61,113 bases of DNA. Source: Gammaproteobacteria bacterium. GTDB lineage: Bacteria; Pseudomonadota; Gammaproteobacteria; Enterobacterales; Alteromonadaceae. The DNA is taken from positions 1-61,113 of the forward strand of contig JAHIWM010000219.1 in NCBI GenBank assembly GCA_018815765.1, given 5' to 3'. A program made the position numbers and the translations under genes. The notes beneath the pieces are model-generated. The model was not told the DNA's origin. It did no database searches and saw only the letters and a program-made list of their open reading frames with translations. Positions 23,585 through 31,411 of the stretch are shown here, in pieces. Each line of letters opens with the position of its first letter. Position 1 is the stretch's first letter.

Positions 23585-24076
23585 CTTTTTTACCCATCAA
23601 GTAACGGTGGCCAGCAACATAACAGGCAATGCTTTATTGGCTTAAAAAGAAAGCATAAAGATTTGCTGAAGATTTGCTGAAGGTCTATTTTAGTCTTTAT
23701 ATTCAGTTGTTTATAGGTATTCTATTGAGGGGCGGCCTTGGAGATACGTGTAATTTGTCGATTGGAAAACGCCGCCATAAACCAGCATTGCTGACAGGTG
23801 GATGAAGGTCTTGGAGGTACTTAAGCTGCTGAGTGAGGAAAACGCCGCCATAAACCAGCATTGCTGACAGGTGGATGAAGGTCTTGGAGGTACTTAAGCT
23901 GTTGAGTGAGGAAAACGCCGCCATAAACCAGGAAACCAGGCAGAGGGGAGGTCTTGGAGGTACCTATACTCTGTGGCGGCTTTCAAAAAACCCATTTCGC
24001 GGGAATGACTACGAAACGGGGAAAACCAGGAAAAAACATACTTTATCGGGTTGCGTAACTGCCCGACAAAGGTCTA
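23585..24076. other. Gene-free region holding a tandem repeat
   Basis: The 492-bp gap lies between the promoter side of the serine hydrolase and the 3' end of the CBS gene. Most of it is the tandem array at 23729-23983. The stretch 23985-24076 has no recognisable gene. The open frames crossing it are repetitive and have no ribosome binding site. Confidence 0.6.
23729..23983. repeat. 73-bp tandem repeat array (about 2.5 units plus degenerate ends)
   Basis: Units begin at 23765, 23838 and 23911 with GAAAACGCCGCCATAAACCA, a period of exactly 73 bp. The first two units are nearly identical (CTGCTGAGTGAG versus CTGTTGAGTGAG); the third diverges after 21 bp but recovers GGTCTTGGAGGTAC. The array starts with GGGCGGCCTTGGAG and ends with GTGGCGGCTTTC; the latter can pair with the GAAAACGCCGCCA of the last unit. 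There is no transposase or coding content. Confidence 0.85.
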
Positions 24077-25244: not shown

Positions 25245-25364
25245 TTACAAAAACTTCATACCTTGTTTTAGTAACCAGGCAACTAACGTCAAGGTTAAAA
25301 AACCAGACAGGTATAAAACGACAAACCACTGGGTTTGAGACAACTCCTTGCCAAAACATTTCAT
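25245..25364 (-). CDS. Single-helix oxidase accessory microprotein (DUF2474/CydX-like)
   Basis: A 39-residue frame, MKCFGKELSQTQWFVVLYLS..., whose ATG shares one base with the cioB stop (TGATG). After a short polar N-terminus there is one transmembrane helix (about residues 12-32, ending TLVAWLLKQ) and a short basic tail. Size, position as last gene of a bd-oxidase operon and the helix pattern match the DUF2474/CydX class of accessory subunits that stabilise the haem sites. The longer frame at 25237-25431 is a shadow in another phase. Confidence 0.8.
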   Translation of the reverse strand: MKCFGKELSQTQWFVVLYLSGFLTLTLVAWLLKQGMKFL

Positions 25365-26407
25365 CAATAGCCCTCCTGATAGTCTTCCACTTTACCGGCG
25401 AAAATTTTGTAGCCCCATAAGGTGTAAGCACAAATCAGCGGTACAAAAATGAAGATGCCTGGCAGCATAAAGATCAAACTACTATCCGGTGCTGCGGCCT
25501 CCATATAGGTCAGTTGCCGTGGCAACAGATAGGGAAAAACGCTGACCAGCAAACCGACAAAAGCCAGCAGGAATAAACCTGAAGCCAGCCAGAATGGCCG
25601 TTCTTCATGGCGTTCCTGTACTGGCAGTTCCGCTTTATGGCTGCGGTTGACCCGGCCTAAATCACGGAATAATAAACGGGCGGCAAGCACCGACAACAGA
25701 GGCAGTGGGATTAACCATAAAGCATGCCAGCCGCCAAACCAACGAGCCCGGATTTCCGGCTCAATCCAGACAGTCCAGAGGCTGACCAACAGCATGGATA
25801 ACATCACAATCAGTAATAAACGTTGGCCATACCGAGCGGCTTTTTGTTGCAGCTCACCACGGCTTTTCATCACCAGATAACAACAGGCCAACAGCGCATA
25901 ACCGGCCATCACAGCTAAACCACAAAACAAGCTAAAAGGGCTAAGCCAACTGAAACTGGACTGATGAATAAAATCAGCCGGTACACCCTGCACTAAAGTA
26001 CCCAGCATCAGGCCCTGACAAAAAGCGGCCAAACTGGAGCCTATAGCAAAAGCCGTGTTCCAATATTTTTTAGAAGTATCTGATTTGAAACGGTATTCAA
26101 AAGCCACACCACGAAAAATTAACCCTATCAGCATCAGCATGATCGGCAGATAAAAAGTCGAGGCGATAGAGGCGTAAGCAGCCGGGAATGCACCGAATAA
26201 AATCACGCCACCAAACACCAGCCAGGTTTCATTGCCATCCCAGACGTGGGCGATGGACCGCATTAAATGGTCGTGTTCGACGTCGGTATCAAACCATGGA
26301 TACAGAATGCCCATACCCAGATCAAAGCCGTCCAACAGCACATACATCAGAATGGCAAAGCCAAGCAGCAGCAAATAAAACAGCTCTAAACTCAGTTCCA
26401 GCTCCAT
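25364..26407 (-). CDS. cioB: Cytochrome bd-type (cyanide-insensitive) oxidase subunit II
   Basis: The 347-residue membrane protein starts [20 protein letters not shown] and shows the subunit II pattern LLDGFDLGMGILYPW, HVWDGNETWLVFGGVILFGAFPAAY and about eight to nine transmembrane helices. It forms the heterodimer with subunit I that oxidises quinol and reduces oxygen in the inner membrane. Its start codon overlaps the cioA stop by one base and its stop overlaps the microprotein start, so the whole operon is translationally coupled. Confidence 0.95.
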   Translation of the reverse strand: MELELSLELFYLLLLGFAILMYVLLDGFDLGMGILYPWFDTDVEHDHLMRSIAHVWDGNETWLVFGGVILFGAFPAAYASIASTFYLPIMLMLIGLIFRGVAFEYRFKSDTSKKYWNTAFAIGSSLAAFCQGLMLGTLVQGVPADFIHQSSFSWLSPFSLFCGLAVMAGYALLACCYLVMKSRGELQQKAARYGQRLLLIVMLSMLLVSLWTVWIEPEIRARWFGGWHALWLIPLPLLSVLAARLLFRDLGRVNRSHKAELPVQERHEERPFWLASGLFLLAFVGLLVSVFPYLLPRQLTYMEAAAPDSSLIFMLPGIFIFVPLICAYTLWGYKIFAGKVEDYQEGY

Positions 26408-27831
26408 TAGTTGGCTCCTTTTGTCGTGGATGGGTCGATATCAGTGGCTAAGGCTTTGGTAAAGGACAAGGCGTAACCTGAAGCTTTGACACCAATACGT
26501 TGTTGTTCCAGATGTTCGATAGGGGCCGGGCCTTTTTTGATCAGCTTGCGCATAAAGTACAAATAAACACCAAACAGCAGGCTGTAGGTCAATACAAATA
26601 AGGTCAGTGAAAACAGCACCCGCTCAGCAGGTAAGGGGCTAACAATCTCACTGGTACGCACCAGGCCATAAATAATCCAGGGCTGACGACCAATTTCCAC
26701 TACATACCAGCCGGCTAGCACAGCAATAACACCTGTGGGAGCCATAAAGCTGACAGGCCAAAGGAACCAGTTACTTTGATACAAAGTGCCACGCCAACGC
26801 AGGTAAGCGCCCAGCACTGCAACACCTATCATCAGCAGGCCAAGACCGACCATAATGCGGAAGCTGAAAAACACTAGCGGTACATTAGGTCTGTCGGCAG
26901 CGGGAACAGATTTTAAACCTTGTAATTCACCATGCCAGTCGTGGGTTAAGATCAGGCTGGCCACACCAGGCACTGCAACTTCATAGTGGTTTTCTTCGGC
27001 TTTCATATCAGGCAATGCAAACAGCAACAGCGGCACATTGGCTTCTTTTTCTGCCCAGATCCCTTCCATAGCTGCCAGTTTCACCGGTTGGTGTTCTTTC
27101 ACATTTAAGCCATGTAAGTCACCCACCCAGGCTTGTAGTGGTGTCAGCACTAAAGCGAACCACAACATCATCGATAAACCTTTGCGGCCAAATTCTTTAT
27201 GCTGGCCTTTGCGTAAATACCAGGCGTGAGTGGCCATCACGACAAAGGTGGCGGTGATTAAAGCGGCCAGTAACATATGCACTAAACGGTAGGGCATTGA
27301 AGGGTTGAAGATAACTTCGAGCCAACTAACGACCTCAAATTTACCGTCGACTATCTGATGGCCTTGTGGTGTTTGCATCCAGGAGTTGGCGGCGATAATC
27401 CAGAAAGCAGAAATCCAGGTGCCTATAGCTACTGTGACTGTGGCGAAAAAGTGCATTTTGGCGCTGACGCGTTGCCAGCCAAACAGCATCACACCTAAAA
27501 AGCCAGCTTCGAGGAAAAAAGCAGTCAGCACTTCGTAAGCCATCAGAGGCCCAAGCACAGCGCCTGCGATTTCTGAAAATTTTGAGAAATTGGTGCCAAA
27601 CTCGTACGACAAAACTATGCCGGACACCACGCCCATACCAAAGGTAATAGCAAAAGGTTTGATCCAGAACTTGGCCAGTTGCAGATACTGTGGGTTACCG
27701 GTTTTCAGCCATAAGCCTTCCCAAATCGCAATCAGCGTAGCTAAACCTATGGTGATGGACGGAAAAATAATATGGAAGCTTACGGTAAAGGCAAACTGGA
27801 TACGCGAGAGGATACTGACATCAAGTTCCAT
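26407..27831 (-). CDS. cioA: Cytochrome bd-type (cyanide-insensitive) oxidase subunit I
   Basis: A 474-residue subunit I. Haem-ligand and proton-path features visible are [18 protein letters not shown] (His ligand), [29 protein letters not shown] (Glu pair) and GRQPW at 381-385. The protein is about 50 residues shorter than E. coli CydA, consistent with the short quinol-loop CIO subfamily that tolerates cyanide. ACGAGG precedes the ATG. A 34-residue frame ends 10 bp upstream, and a sigma54-type promoter candidate precedes both. Confidence 0.95.
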
Positions 27832-27841
27832 AACAACCTCG

Positions 27842-27946
27842 TTATTTAGGTGCTTTTACCCGACTTAATACGGCAGGCGCAAGCGCCACAGACAATAACA
27901 GCAACATGGTCAGCAGTTCGGCAGCAAGAATAGACAGGTCTGGCAT
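27842..27946 (-). CDS. Leader microprotein of the cio operon (34 residues)
   Basis: A 34-residue frame on the minus strand, MPDLSILAAELLTMLLLLSV followed by ALAPAVLSRVKAPK. It has one strongly hydrophobic helix (residues 5-28) and a basic C-terminus, which suggests a single-span inner-membrane protein. AAAGAGAAC lies just upstream of the ATG. The stop is 10 bp before cioA. Position and form recall CydX/CydS/CydH-type accessory subunits, but I recognise no family, and the real DUF2474-like protein is already at the other end of the operon. It may be an accessory subunit or a regulatory leader peptide. Confidence 0.6.
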   Translation of the reverse strand: MPDLSILAAELLTMLLLLSVALAPAVLSRVKAPK

Positions 27947-27999
27947 AATGTTCTCTTTGTTGACAAGTTATGCAGCAAGAACGCTGCTTATCTCTGTAG

Positions 28000-28134: not shown

Positions 28135-30015
28135 GTGGATCTGATTTTAGCTTTTGAGTTGATGATGTTAGTCAGCAGTGGCTGCGCTGCGCTGATGTCG
28201 GGTTGGCTCTGGTGGCATTCCCGTTATCAGCAGACACTGGCTGGTTTAGCAGGCTTTGGTGCCATGATGGCGCTTTGGTGTTTAGGCCATGTTTTTGTCA
28301 TACACGACCAGCCAGAGCTGGGGCGTTACCTGTTATTAGCCAATCCATTGATGCCCACCTTTTTCCTGCATTTTGCCTTGCGTTTTGTTGAACAGGATCA
28401 GGTAAAAGCATCCTGGTTAAGCTGGGCGCGACGTCATATTGGCTGGTTGTATTTTTTGACCGCCCTGGTGGTGCTGCTGAGCTGGAGCCTGGATGCCGGT
28501 GATGTGCTGCAAAGCATAGCTTTGGGTCAGGTTTTTGTATTTCATTCCTACGGCTTTTTAAATCTGCTGTACACCGTTGTTCTTGGCATTCTGGCCCACG
28601 CCGTGTTGTGGTACGGCTGGCGCTACCATCAGGGCAATAAAAAACGCTCTATTGTCGCGATGTTTTTAGCCGGGGGTTGGGGTTTATTGCTGGCGACTCC
28701 TGTGGTATTCCCTTCTTTTGGTCTGGATTGGTTCCCTTACCCTATGTTGTTGTTGCCCAGCTATCCGGTATTGCTGGTCTATGGTGTGGTGCGTTACCAG
28801 ATGCTGGCGGTGAATGCGCTGGCGAACAGAGCCTTGCTCTGGCTGGTGATGTCCTTGTTATTGCTGTTACTGATGGCATTGGTCAGCTCCATTTTTGGTC
28901 AGTTGGGTATGAAGGCGCTGGCAAACGTGCCTGGGTGGCAGTTGTGGCTGTACTCCAGTCTGGTGCTGTTGCTTACCGCAGCCTGTTACCGGCCTGTCGC
29001 CAAACTGGCTGAACGTTTAATTTACCCTGGTGCTACTTTGGATCAGGCGTTGATCAACACCTGGCGTCAGCAGTTGGGGTTGTGTCAAAACTGGCTCGGG
29101 TTAAGTGAAAAAGCATCAGAGTTGCTCTCGGCGGCGCTTAAGCAAAATGTACAAGTCGAATTGCCTGCAGTTTCAGGCCTGTTTGTCAGTGAAAGCCAGT
29201 TAAAAATCCGTTGTTATAGCCAACAAGGGCGATGGCAGGTTGAACTACTAGGTTGGGATGATATGACGCCCGGTATACGTTTAGTCGCTCAGGTGTTTGG
29301 TTCTTTGCTTGGCAGTAGCTGTGAGCTATTGGCGCAGTCGCTACAACTGGCCGAAGCTGAAAAGCAGCAGTTGTCGCAGCAACATCTGGTCGAAATGGGC
29401 GCTTTGGCGGCTTCGATGGCACATGAGTTGCGTAACCCGTTGAATATTATTTCTATGGCATCCGCTGGGGTTGATGCTGAATTGCGGAGCCATATTCAGC
29501 AGCAACTGAAAAGAGCTGACCGGTTAATTTCCGATATGCTGGTGTACTCAGGTCGTTTGCAGTTGCAATACAGCCAGATTGAGCTGGAGCCTTTGTTGCA
29601 AAGCTTGTTGCAGCAGTTTGACTGGCTGCAGGTCAAACTGGAACTGAAAGTCCCTTCCGGCCTGATGCTGCGGGCTGATCAGCACAGAGTGCAGCAGGTG
29701 TTCTTAAATTTGTTTGATAACGCTAATGCTTTTTTACGTAATCAGGCCGATGCGACCTTGAGTGTCGAAGTGGCCTTAGTCGGGGATGTGATCCGGGTGC
29801 GGGTGCATAACAATGGCCCTGCATTGGATCTCAGCTTAACCACCGAACAATTATTCCGGCCTTTTATCAGTAAACGCAGTGGAGGCAGCGGTTTAGGTTT
29901 AGCCATAGTGAAACGTATTATGGATGCCCATCAGGGCCAGATCAGCTTCCGCACTGATTTGGGTTGGGCTGTCAGTTTTGAACTTTTGTTTCCAAAGGAT
30001 ATCCCCCATGTTTAG
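28135..30015 (+). CDS. Membrane sensor histidine kinase
   Basis: The 626-residue kinase starts at GTG. About eight transmembrane segments fill residues 1-285, then a region without a recognised domain (about 290-405), the HisKA dimerisation helix with the phospho-acceptor His430 (MAHELRNPLN), and an ATPase domain with NLFDNANAF and GGSGLGLAIV. The layout is NtrB-like with an integral membrane sensor. The response regulator gene overlaps its 3' end by 8 bp, so they are a cognate pair. The pair is divergent from the cio operon, so it probably senses respiratory or quinone state; that is inference. Confidence 0.9.
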   Translation: MDLILAFELMMLVSSGCAALMSGWLWWHSRYQQTLAGLAGFGAMMALWCLGHVFVIHDQPELGRYLLLANPLMPTFFLHFALRFVEQDQVKASWLSWARRHIGWLYFLTALVVLLSWSLDAGDVLQSIALGQVFVFHSYGFLNLLYTVVLGILAHAVLWYGWRYHQGNKKRSIVAMFLAGGWGLLLATPVVFPSFGLDWFPYPMLLLPSYPVLLVYGVVRYQMLAVNALANRALLWLVMSLLLLLLMALVSSIFGQLGMKALANVPGWQLWLYSSLVLLLTAACYRPVAKLAERLIYPGATLDQALINTWRQQLGLCQNWLGLSEKASELLSAALKQNVQVELPAVSGLFVSESQLKIRCYSQQGRWQVELLGWDDMTPGIRLVAQVFGSLLGSSCELLAQSLQLAEAEKQQLSQQHLVEMGALAASMAHELRNPLNIISMASAGVDAELRSHIQQQLKRADRLISDMLVYSGRLQLQYSQIELEPLLQSLLQQFDWLQVKLELKVPSGLMLRADQHRVQQVFLNLFDNANAFLRNQADATLSVEVALVGDVIRVRVHNNGPALDLSLTTEQLFRPFISKRSGGSGLGLAIVKRIMDAHQGQISFRTDLGWAVSFELLFPKDIPHV

Positions 30016-31411
30016 CGCAACAACGCCTAATCAGGCGCGTATTTTAATTGTCGATGATGAGCCTGCCTTTCGTTTATTGGCTGAACGTTTTTTACAGCAA
30101 CAGGGTTATCAGGTGGCCGGAGCCGCTAATCTGGACGAAACCCGCACTAAATTACAGCAGTTTGATGCAGATTTAATTTTGCTCGACCTGGCTTTACCTC
30201 CTCAATTTGACCCGGCTTATACCTTAGCTGCAGTGCCAGAGTTTTCGACGCGGCCTGTGATTATTTTAACTGGCCACGCCGAACGTGAACTGGCGTTGCA
30301 GGCCATAGCACAAGGCGCATGGGATTTTATTGCCAAGCCAATAGACCCGGAGTTACTGGCTGTAGTGGTGAAACGCGCTATCACTAAACATCAGCTGGAA
30401 AAAGAAGTACGGCAGTTAAAGCAAGGCTTGCAACAGCATAGCTTTTTGCCGAAGTTGGCTGGACATTCGCGACATATGGAAACAGTTCGTACCTTAGTGC
30501 AACGTATAGCACCAACCGAAGTACGGGTCTTGGTGACAGGGCCGTCCGGTACAGGCAAAGAAGTGATTTCACGGGCTTTGCATGAACTCAGCCCTCGCGC
30601 AGAAAAAGCTTTTGTCTCAGTGCACTGCGGTGCTATTCCGGCTGATTTATTAGAAAGTGAGCTGTTTGGTTATGTCAAAGGGGCCTTTACTGGTGCAGAT
30701 AAAGACCGGCAGGGCTTATTAAAACTGGCCGATGGCGGTACTTTGTTCCTCGACGAAATTGGCGAAATGCCGCTGGCGATGCAGGTGAAATTATTACGGG
30801 TGTTGCAGGAAGGCACCTTTTATCCGGTTGGTGGCCGTGAACAGCAAAAAATTGATATCCGTCTGGTGTCTGCGACCAACGCGAACCTGCCGGATTTAGT
30901 CAAGCAAGGTAAATTTCGCGAAGATCTGTATTACCGCATCAAAGGCGTCACTATCGAAACTGTGGCTTTGGATGAGCGACGCGAAGATATTCCATTGCTG
31001 ATCCAGTTTTTTCTGGAGCAACTCAGTGCGCAGTATGGTCAGAAACTTCAGCTTGAGTCGGCCGCGATCAGCTGGTTTTTGCAAAAGCGCTGGCCTGGGA
31101 ATGTGCGCGAATTAAAGAATACGCTGGAAAGCGTCGCTGCTATAGCTCAGCAAGGTGTGATCCGGGTTGTCGATATTCAGTTGCTGCATCTGGAGCATCA
31201 AAGTATGGATCCAGACACAGAACTGGTGCCTGGATCTGACTTAAGCAGTCTGGATGAACAGGTGAAAGCTTTGGAGATCCGTTTAATTCAGCAGGCGATG
31301 ACCCAATATAAAGGCAATAAGAGCCAGGCCTCGCGAGCTTTGGGTATTTCCCGTCAGGGTTTACTGAAGAAAATTGAACGTTATGCGCTGACTGATTTGG
31401 GGGATGACTAA
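30008..31411 (+). CDS. NtrC-family sigma54 response regulator
   Basis: The ATG at 30008 gives 467 residues: receiver (about 10-125; acidic pair Asp16-Asp17, phospho-acceptor Asp60, Lys110), AAA+ domain with GPSGTGKE at 178-185, GAFTGA at 225-230 and LFLDEIGEM, and a Fis-type helix-turn-helix at the end ([20 protein letters not shown]). All catalytic and sigma54-contact residues are intact. It overlaps the kinase gene by 8 bp. By position its likely target is the divergent cio operon, which has a sigma54-like promoter. Confidence 0.93.

Follow-up and report, generated by a model that had tools for sequence, protein, structure and literature searches.

A small gene immediately upstream of cioA almost certainly encodes a protein under purifying selection, and this microprotein tracks one clade of CioA proteins over several genera. 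We suggest that it is probably an undescribed second small subunit, consisting of one helix, in a single clade of CIO-type bd oxidases. Three observations lead to this reading: the protein sequence is under selection, the gene is restricted to one CioA clade, and a basic CioA residue co-occurs with the microprotein. The first-pass annotation had raised the possibility of a second accessory subunit, and these observations lend it indirect support. The locus lies on the minus strand of the window, by which we mean the whole 61,113-nucleotide stretch of DNA that was analysed, and comprises the following features.

27842..27946, minus strand: upstream microprotein gene from the open reading frame listing, 34 aa, ATG start, MPDLSILAAELLTMLLLLSVALAPAVLSRVKAPK; predicted single helix, N-out/C-in by charge
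27917..27919, minus strand: codon for Glu10, the conserved acid of the upstream microprotein; the column is Glu in 37/40 and Asp in 3/40 sequences of the unanchored alignment A1
27947..27966, minus strand: stretch immediately 5´ of the microprotein start, in which AAGAGA weakly resembles a Shine-Dalgarno sequence, TTGTCAACAAAGAGAACATT
27832..27841, minus strand: 10-bp gap between the microprotein stop and the cioA start, containing GAGG
26407..27831, minus strand: cioA, CIO-type bd oxidase subunit I, 474 aa (Cyt_bd_oxida_I, PF01654, 569 bits)
26620..26622, minus strand: codon for CioA Arg404, in the first turn of TM9 according to the CioA alignment and the CioA model
25364..26407, minus strand: cioB, subunit II, 347 aa (Cyt_bd_oxida_II, PF02322, 316 bits)
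25245..25364, minus strand: downstream microprotein, 39 aa, DUF2474/CydZ family by profile comparison; its start overlaps the cioB stop (TGATG)

This layout agrees with the first-pass annotation, which had described a 34-residue single-helix frame ending 10 bp before cioA and a 39-residue frame coupled to cioB by TGATG: the stop codon of the upstream frame ends 10 bp ahead of the ATG at 27831, and the coordinates of the downstream frame match. Both AAGAGA and the GAGG in the 10-bp gap are putative ribosome-binding sites, for the microprotein and for cioA, respectively. The downstream frame starts at the ATG within TGATG; an alternative TTG one codon earlier would give 40 aa. The cioA gene is the sole CioA match at E<=0.001 in its own genome, which is 91% complete, and the nearest named relatives of its product are from Rheinheimera, at 98% identity.

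Several other features of the window were noted. Overlapping genes for a histidine kinase and a sigma-54-type response regulator (28135-31411, plus strand) are divergent from the cio operon and are, we presume, possibly of the PrsK/PrsR type. A 73-bp repeat at 23764-23966 consists of two near-identical tandem copies and a third, diverged and partial copy; a search of the whole genome found it at these three places only. At the gathering score, Rfam gave no match in the window.

Upstream frame as a conserved protein gene

Our first locus set comprised 101 loci with a CioA at least 60% identical to that of the window, some genomes being present twice. A hydrophobic frame precedes cioA at 100 of these loci, giving 74 distinct proteins of 29-40 codons, a length range that depends on start codons of our own choosing; in two relatives added later the microprotein has 48 aa. 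The frame is therefore conserved, and its length and stop position do not vary freely; a lack of conservation or such free variation is what the first-pass annotation had named as refuting its interpretation. The bias toward synonymous changes that it had proposed to look for was also found. pN/pS in six groups of relatives is 0.18, 0.24, 0.27, 0.26, 0.21, and 0.23, and third codon positions hold 58-64% of the differences. When the other two frames of the same DNA were read in one group, Rheinheimera, the effect was gone, with pN of 0.135 and 0.180 against pS of 0.188 and 0.043. Given these substitution patterns, we consider it near certain that the upstream frame encodes a protein that purifying selection maintains.

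The exception among the 101 loci, L100, comes from an Oceanisphaera metagenome assembly, and retains apparent remnants of the microprotein frame with stops inside; the interruption is possibly an assembly error. After 79 loci had been added, the frame was found before 109 of 110 cioA genes whose products are at least 60% identical to the CioA of the window, L100 again being the remaining locus. Four were recognized by eye (L160-L162, L205) and 105 by profile (E<=0.01), a profile built from 40 sequences (A1) of the same loci, so that scores on those sequences are not independent. Before the 70 cioA genes below 60% identity the frame was never seen, the best profile match having an E value of 0.64. 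It is also absent from two relatives added later, with CioA identities of 59% and 66%.

Comparison of the upstream protein with Pfam, NCBIfam, and PDB sequences gave nothing significant; weak matches (best E 0.035) occurred for only a few members, without a common pattern. Neither CydX (PF08173) nor DUF2474 (PF10617) matched any of the 40 A1 members at E<=1. A search of the open-licence literature, a body that lacks most subscription journals, found no earlier description. We regard the upstream protein as a real and conserved, and apparently undescribed, small membrane protein of a CIO clade.

Distribution among CioA relatives

In our samples, the microprotein follows a single CioA clade across Rheinheimera, Marinomonas, Oceanospirillum, Marinobacterium, Nitrincola, Zobellella, Oceanimonas, Oceanisphaera, Pokkaliibacter, and Oceanobacter. 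In a first CioA tree, the 88 sequences above 60% identity form one clade with a support of 0.999. In the enlarged tree, all carriers fall inside a clade of 96 (support 0.842), which also includes L100 and two loci, L216 and L217, whose position inside the clade has a support of only 0.456.

Genome samples were taken at three taxonomic levels. In an order sample of 197 genomes, the seven profile matches at E<=0.001 each neighbor a CioA with an identity of 65% or more to that of the window. Eleven genomes of this sample have a CioA of that kind, and the frame is present in every one of them (seven by profile and four short variants by eye). A second order, that of genome G700 (194 genomes), has 11 profile matches at E<=0.01, nine of them beside CioA, and two further microproteins of 48 aa recognized by signature. 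Here 11 of the 13 genomes with a CioA at least 62% identical have the frame, the two without it being G920 and G955. A class sample of 369 genomes contains CioA at E<=1e-100 in 93; all except that of the own genome are at most 58% identical, and the own genome alone, among nine matching the profile at E<=0.01, has its match beside CioA. In a phylum sample, the profile matched in 3 of 398 genomes.

The eight other class-sample matches (E 8e-4 to 0.009) were rejected; they lie in open frames of 148-409 aa, and the genomes concerned either have their CioA on another contig or do not match CioA at all. Two of the 11 matches in the order of G700 are not beside CioA and are of the same kind. A plasmid collection held 343 records with CioA-like proteins (E<=1e-100), none of which reaches 60% identity, so there was no annotated clade relative to inspect. 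Two genomes of the same genus carry second cioA copies (L023 and L024); the CioA paralogs are 50-54% identical, and an upstream hydrophobic frame was not seen at these copies.

Short open frames are common, and as many as 105 frames of at least 25 aa overlap a 9-kb stretch, which is what might lead one to take the upstream frame for a product of chance. Against this stand the pN/pS values in all six groups and the fact that profile matches beside a CioA are confined to the clade. In our view, selection and conservation at the locus already refute a chance origin, and we give it next to no weight.

Features of the microprotein

The AlphaFold2 model of the microprotein of the window is a single helix covering residues 2-31 (mean pLDDT 89.7). 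In the unanchored alignment of 40 rows, one column is acidic and another is proline in every row. Among 78 distinct proteins, the acid is at position 7-10 with the proline 13-18 residues later, and exactly 14 residues later in 69, a count for which the presence of both residues was required. An alanine at +11 from the acid is invariant in these 69 proteins. Nine proteins of the same genus have an acid-proline spacing of 13 or 18 and do not have the signature acid-x10-Ala-x2-Pro; six of the nine, which scored only E 0.04-4, were admitted by position and the acid.

Charge is distributed asymmetrically. The N-terminal part has a net charge of 0 to -2 in all 78 proteins, and the C-terminal tail one of +2 to +4 in 70. 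Applied to these charges, the positive-inside rule, an established rule of membrane topology, predicts an acid in the outer membrane half and a basic tail on the inner side. Conservation along the helix has a periodicity that peaks at 100 degrees. With the acid and proline anchor columns included, p is 0.003-0.0045; leaving these columns out raises it to 0.029 (positions 1-13) or 0.058 (positions 1-17). A conserved helix face is likely rather than proven.

Association with CioA Arg404

We aligned 178 distinct CioA sequences, 93 with and 85 without the microprotein, and compared 474 sites. Every one of the 93 CioA proteins that accompany the microprotein has Arg or Lys at position 404, as do only two of the other 85 (L100 and L192). 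This makes position 404 the best class-level discriminator among the 474 sites; site 53 also separates the sets fairly well (98% vs 6%). Eighty-four of the carriers have the acid-x10-Ala-x2-Pro signature and nine were called by profile alone, and none of the 85 non-carrier genes is preceded by the signature. In the CioA model (mean pLDDT 92.2), TM9 spans residues 402-433, which places Arg404 in its first turn. Counting from the alignment, Arg404 corresponds to Asp470 of E. coli CydA.

L216 and L217 speak for this association: in these two the frame is missing and residue 404 is Ser and Gln, yet they share the clade markers Gln51, Pro59, Gly218, Glu263, Phe426, and Leu441. Against it, L192 has Arg404 without the microprotein, and L100 has kept Arg404 despite its interrupted frame. 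The covariation of Arg404 with the microprotein rests essentially on one joint origin, with few independent events. A looser list of clade-specific CioA sites had hinted at enrichment in TM1 and TM9, an idea that we dropped when an objective list placed two of the four strictest sites there (P 0.13, not significant). Separately, much of the clade has in common a C-terminal CioA tail (window residues ~440-460, low model confidence), QQxIGxKAPGYALxWVKxL, which is absent from the outgroup rows shown.

A possible place of the helix beside CioA can be considered in light of known bd oxidases. CydX, AppX, and CydS sit beside TM1 and TM4-7, and CydH is in the TM1/TM9 cleft (PMC8951039; PMC8585947; PMC6853902). 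The microprotein could occupy the CydX position (TM1 and TM4-7 of CioA), with the DUF2474 protein elsewhere and Arg404 a coincidental marker of the clade. The charged C-terminus of E. coli CydX is described as cytoplasmic (PMC6853902), which is also the orientation that charge predicts for the microprotein, and the DUF2474-type proteins aligned here mostly have basic N-terminal parts. An earlier analysis predicted the opposite orientation for CydX (Degli Esposti, 2015; PMC5322542). Arguing against a CydX position, a profile comparison between the microprotein and CydX aligned one column, at a probability of 0.2%, and the best CioA discriminator is at TM9. We consider this placement quite unlikely. 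Pairing of the acid with Arg404 in a CydH-like position is the placement that we tentatively prefer, held at less than even confidence.

The downstream protein

At 97 of the 101 clade loci, cioB is followed by a small hydrophobic frame, and two of the other four loci end at cioB. In 73 of the 97, the frame begins 1 or 4 nt before the end of the cioB stop. The first-pass annotation had called the downstream frame DUF2474-like. Pfam by itself was insufficient to establish this, since the protein of the window scores 15.7 bits against DUF2474 (PF10617), below the cut-off of 26.6, and none of four clade relatives matched; two of four non-clade proteins did, at 59.8 and 66.2 bits. Profile-profile comparison upheld the assignment: a clade alignment (A3, 17 rows) matched a non-clade alignment (A4, nine rows including the two Pfam matches) with a probability of 97.8% and an E value of 8e-13. 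By this comparison, the downstream protein is a divergent member of the DUF2474/CydZ family. The 17 clade rows have invariant F, L, Y, and G residues, a nearly invariant W, and an aromatic start to the helix. In genome G006, the second cioAB set (L023, CioA 54% identical) includes a clear DUF2474 protein (59.8 bits).

Position in the operon and regulation

At 100 loci, the distance between the microprotein frame and cioA ranges from an 11-nt overlap (-11) to 201 nt; the two overlap at 15 loci and are 0-10 nt apart at 54, and thus overlap or lie within 10 nt at 69. A frame that is upstream of cioA in all carrier loci, and so often this close, could be a regulatory leader peptide that governs cioA through its own translation, the other possibility that the first-pass annotation had offered. 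Yet the spacing to cioA varies widely, and it is the amino acids, including the acid, the proline, and the basic tail, that are kept while the codons change. A leader function is thus disfavored, and we think it very improbable.

Of 74 distinct loci, 46 have an FNR-like box (at most one mismatch) upstream of the microprotein frame, compared to 2.3% of shuffled regions, which places the frame inside the transcript. One locus has an additional FNR-like box inside the microprotein frame. In the subclade of the window itself, a search of the 200 nt upstream gave no FNR-like box, even with two mismatches allowed. In the Marinomonas-type loci (L054-L110), the center of the box is ~35 nt before the microprotein start, a spacing that seems to fit repression better than activation. 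In Pseudomonas, ANR represses the cio genes.

A possible second small subunit

We suggest that the microprotein is probably a subunit of the oxidase and not an assembly helper or a leader. In this model, the microprotein gene would be the first in an operon ordered micro-cioA-cioB-cydZ, and its helix would be placed N-out/C-in beside CioA. The acid in the periplasmic half of the helix may pair with Arg404, where TM9 begins on the periplasmic side. The helix could then pack along TM9, and perhaps also TM1, whose cleft with TM9 is filled by CydH in E. coli. Such packing might stabilize the complex, shield the heme side from the membrane, or both. With the CydZ/DUF2474 protein being separate, the enzyme would carry two small proteins.

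A broader and more doubtful evolutionary scenario is that the CIO clade gained both the new small subunit and the docking Arg404 near its root. The helix would then have come independently to fill a CydH-type TM1/TM9 face, closing lateral access of O2, quinone, or small inhibitors to a heme, with two small helices per enzyme.

As the product of the first gene of the operon, the microprotein could instead act in assembly or maturation, binding nascent CioA during heme insertion or assembly with its partner and being absent from the finished enzyme. Restriction to one clade and the link with Arg404 would suit such a transient partner equally well. However, the bd oxidase helices of matching size, CydX, CydS, AppX, and CydH, reside in the finished enzyme (PMC8951039; PMC8585947; PMC6853902). 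We therefore consider an assembly factor unlikely.

The subunit reading has consequences beyond this locus. CIO enzymes permit bacterial respiration under cyanide. A conserved second small protein means that the subunit composition of an entire CIO clade has probably been misinterpreted, and CIO preparations made without the microprotein could miss a part. Pairing between the acid and Arg404 would offer a one-residue test. Moreover, natural contrasts, namely near relatives without both the microprotein and Arg404 and second cioA copies without the microprotein in the same genus, make a role for the helix testable.

Comparison with known small subunits

Seven PDB sequences are related to the CioA of the window, none of them labelled CIO, and the microprotein can be compared with small proteins of other bd oxidases. 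Like CydX, AppX, and CydS, it is a predicted single helix, and the cytoplasmic C-terminus predicted for it matches that of CydX (PMC6853902). CydX and AppX are encoded after the large-subunit genes in E. coli (cydABX and appCBX), whereas the microprotein gene is upstream of cioA. It has no sequence match to CydX, and the conserved Trp at the start of the CydX helix (PMC4325964) is not a conserved column in the microprotein.

CydH of E. coli bd-I (also CydY or YnhF) is a 29-residue single helix in the CydA TM1/TM9 cleft, where it blocks access to heme b595 (PMC8951039; PMC6853902). Unlike the microprotein, CydH is encoded away from the cyd operon, and lacks an early acid at the aligned place, the proline, and the basic tail. 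We do not claim homology between them. Residues late in the helix looked alike, and hhalign gave a probability of 16% and 6.8 bits, but scores as high were obtained for 11 of 3000 shuffles and for 5 of 204 natural TM 29-mers, a set that leaves out one 29-mer that is the microprotein itself.

Two other proteins can be compared by description only. CioY of C. jejuni (the CydY of Allen et al., 2014) is a 34-aa single helix that binds CioA as shown by co-immunoprecipitation (PMC11955535). It is likewise a small single helix; in contrast to the microprotein, CioY is encoded after the oxidase genes, has conserved Trp, Pro, and Tyr residues, and is from Epsilonproteobacteria. Allen et al. (2014; PMC4325964) mention, and leave unreported, an unnamed hydrophobic protein upstream of cydAB in operons of long-Q-loop CydA without CydX. 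This protein is also small, hydrophobic, and upstream, whereas the clade described here is of the CIO type. For DUF4492, the literature search found no paper that mentions it together with cydA.

The protein that shares an operon with the microprotein is CydZ, named and located in Pseudomonas cio operons by Allen et al. (2014; PMC4325964), and DUF2474 has been tied to CIO subtype C (Degli Esposti, 2015; PMC5322542). Both CydZ and the microprotein are single-helix proteins of CIO operons. The two are unrelated, with the A1 and A3 profiles aligning over one column, and the microprotein gene precedes cioA and co-exists with cydZ in the same operon.
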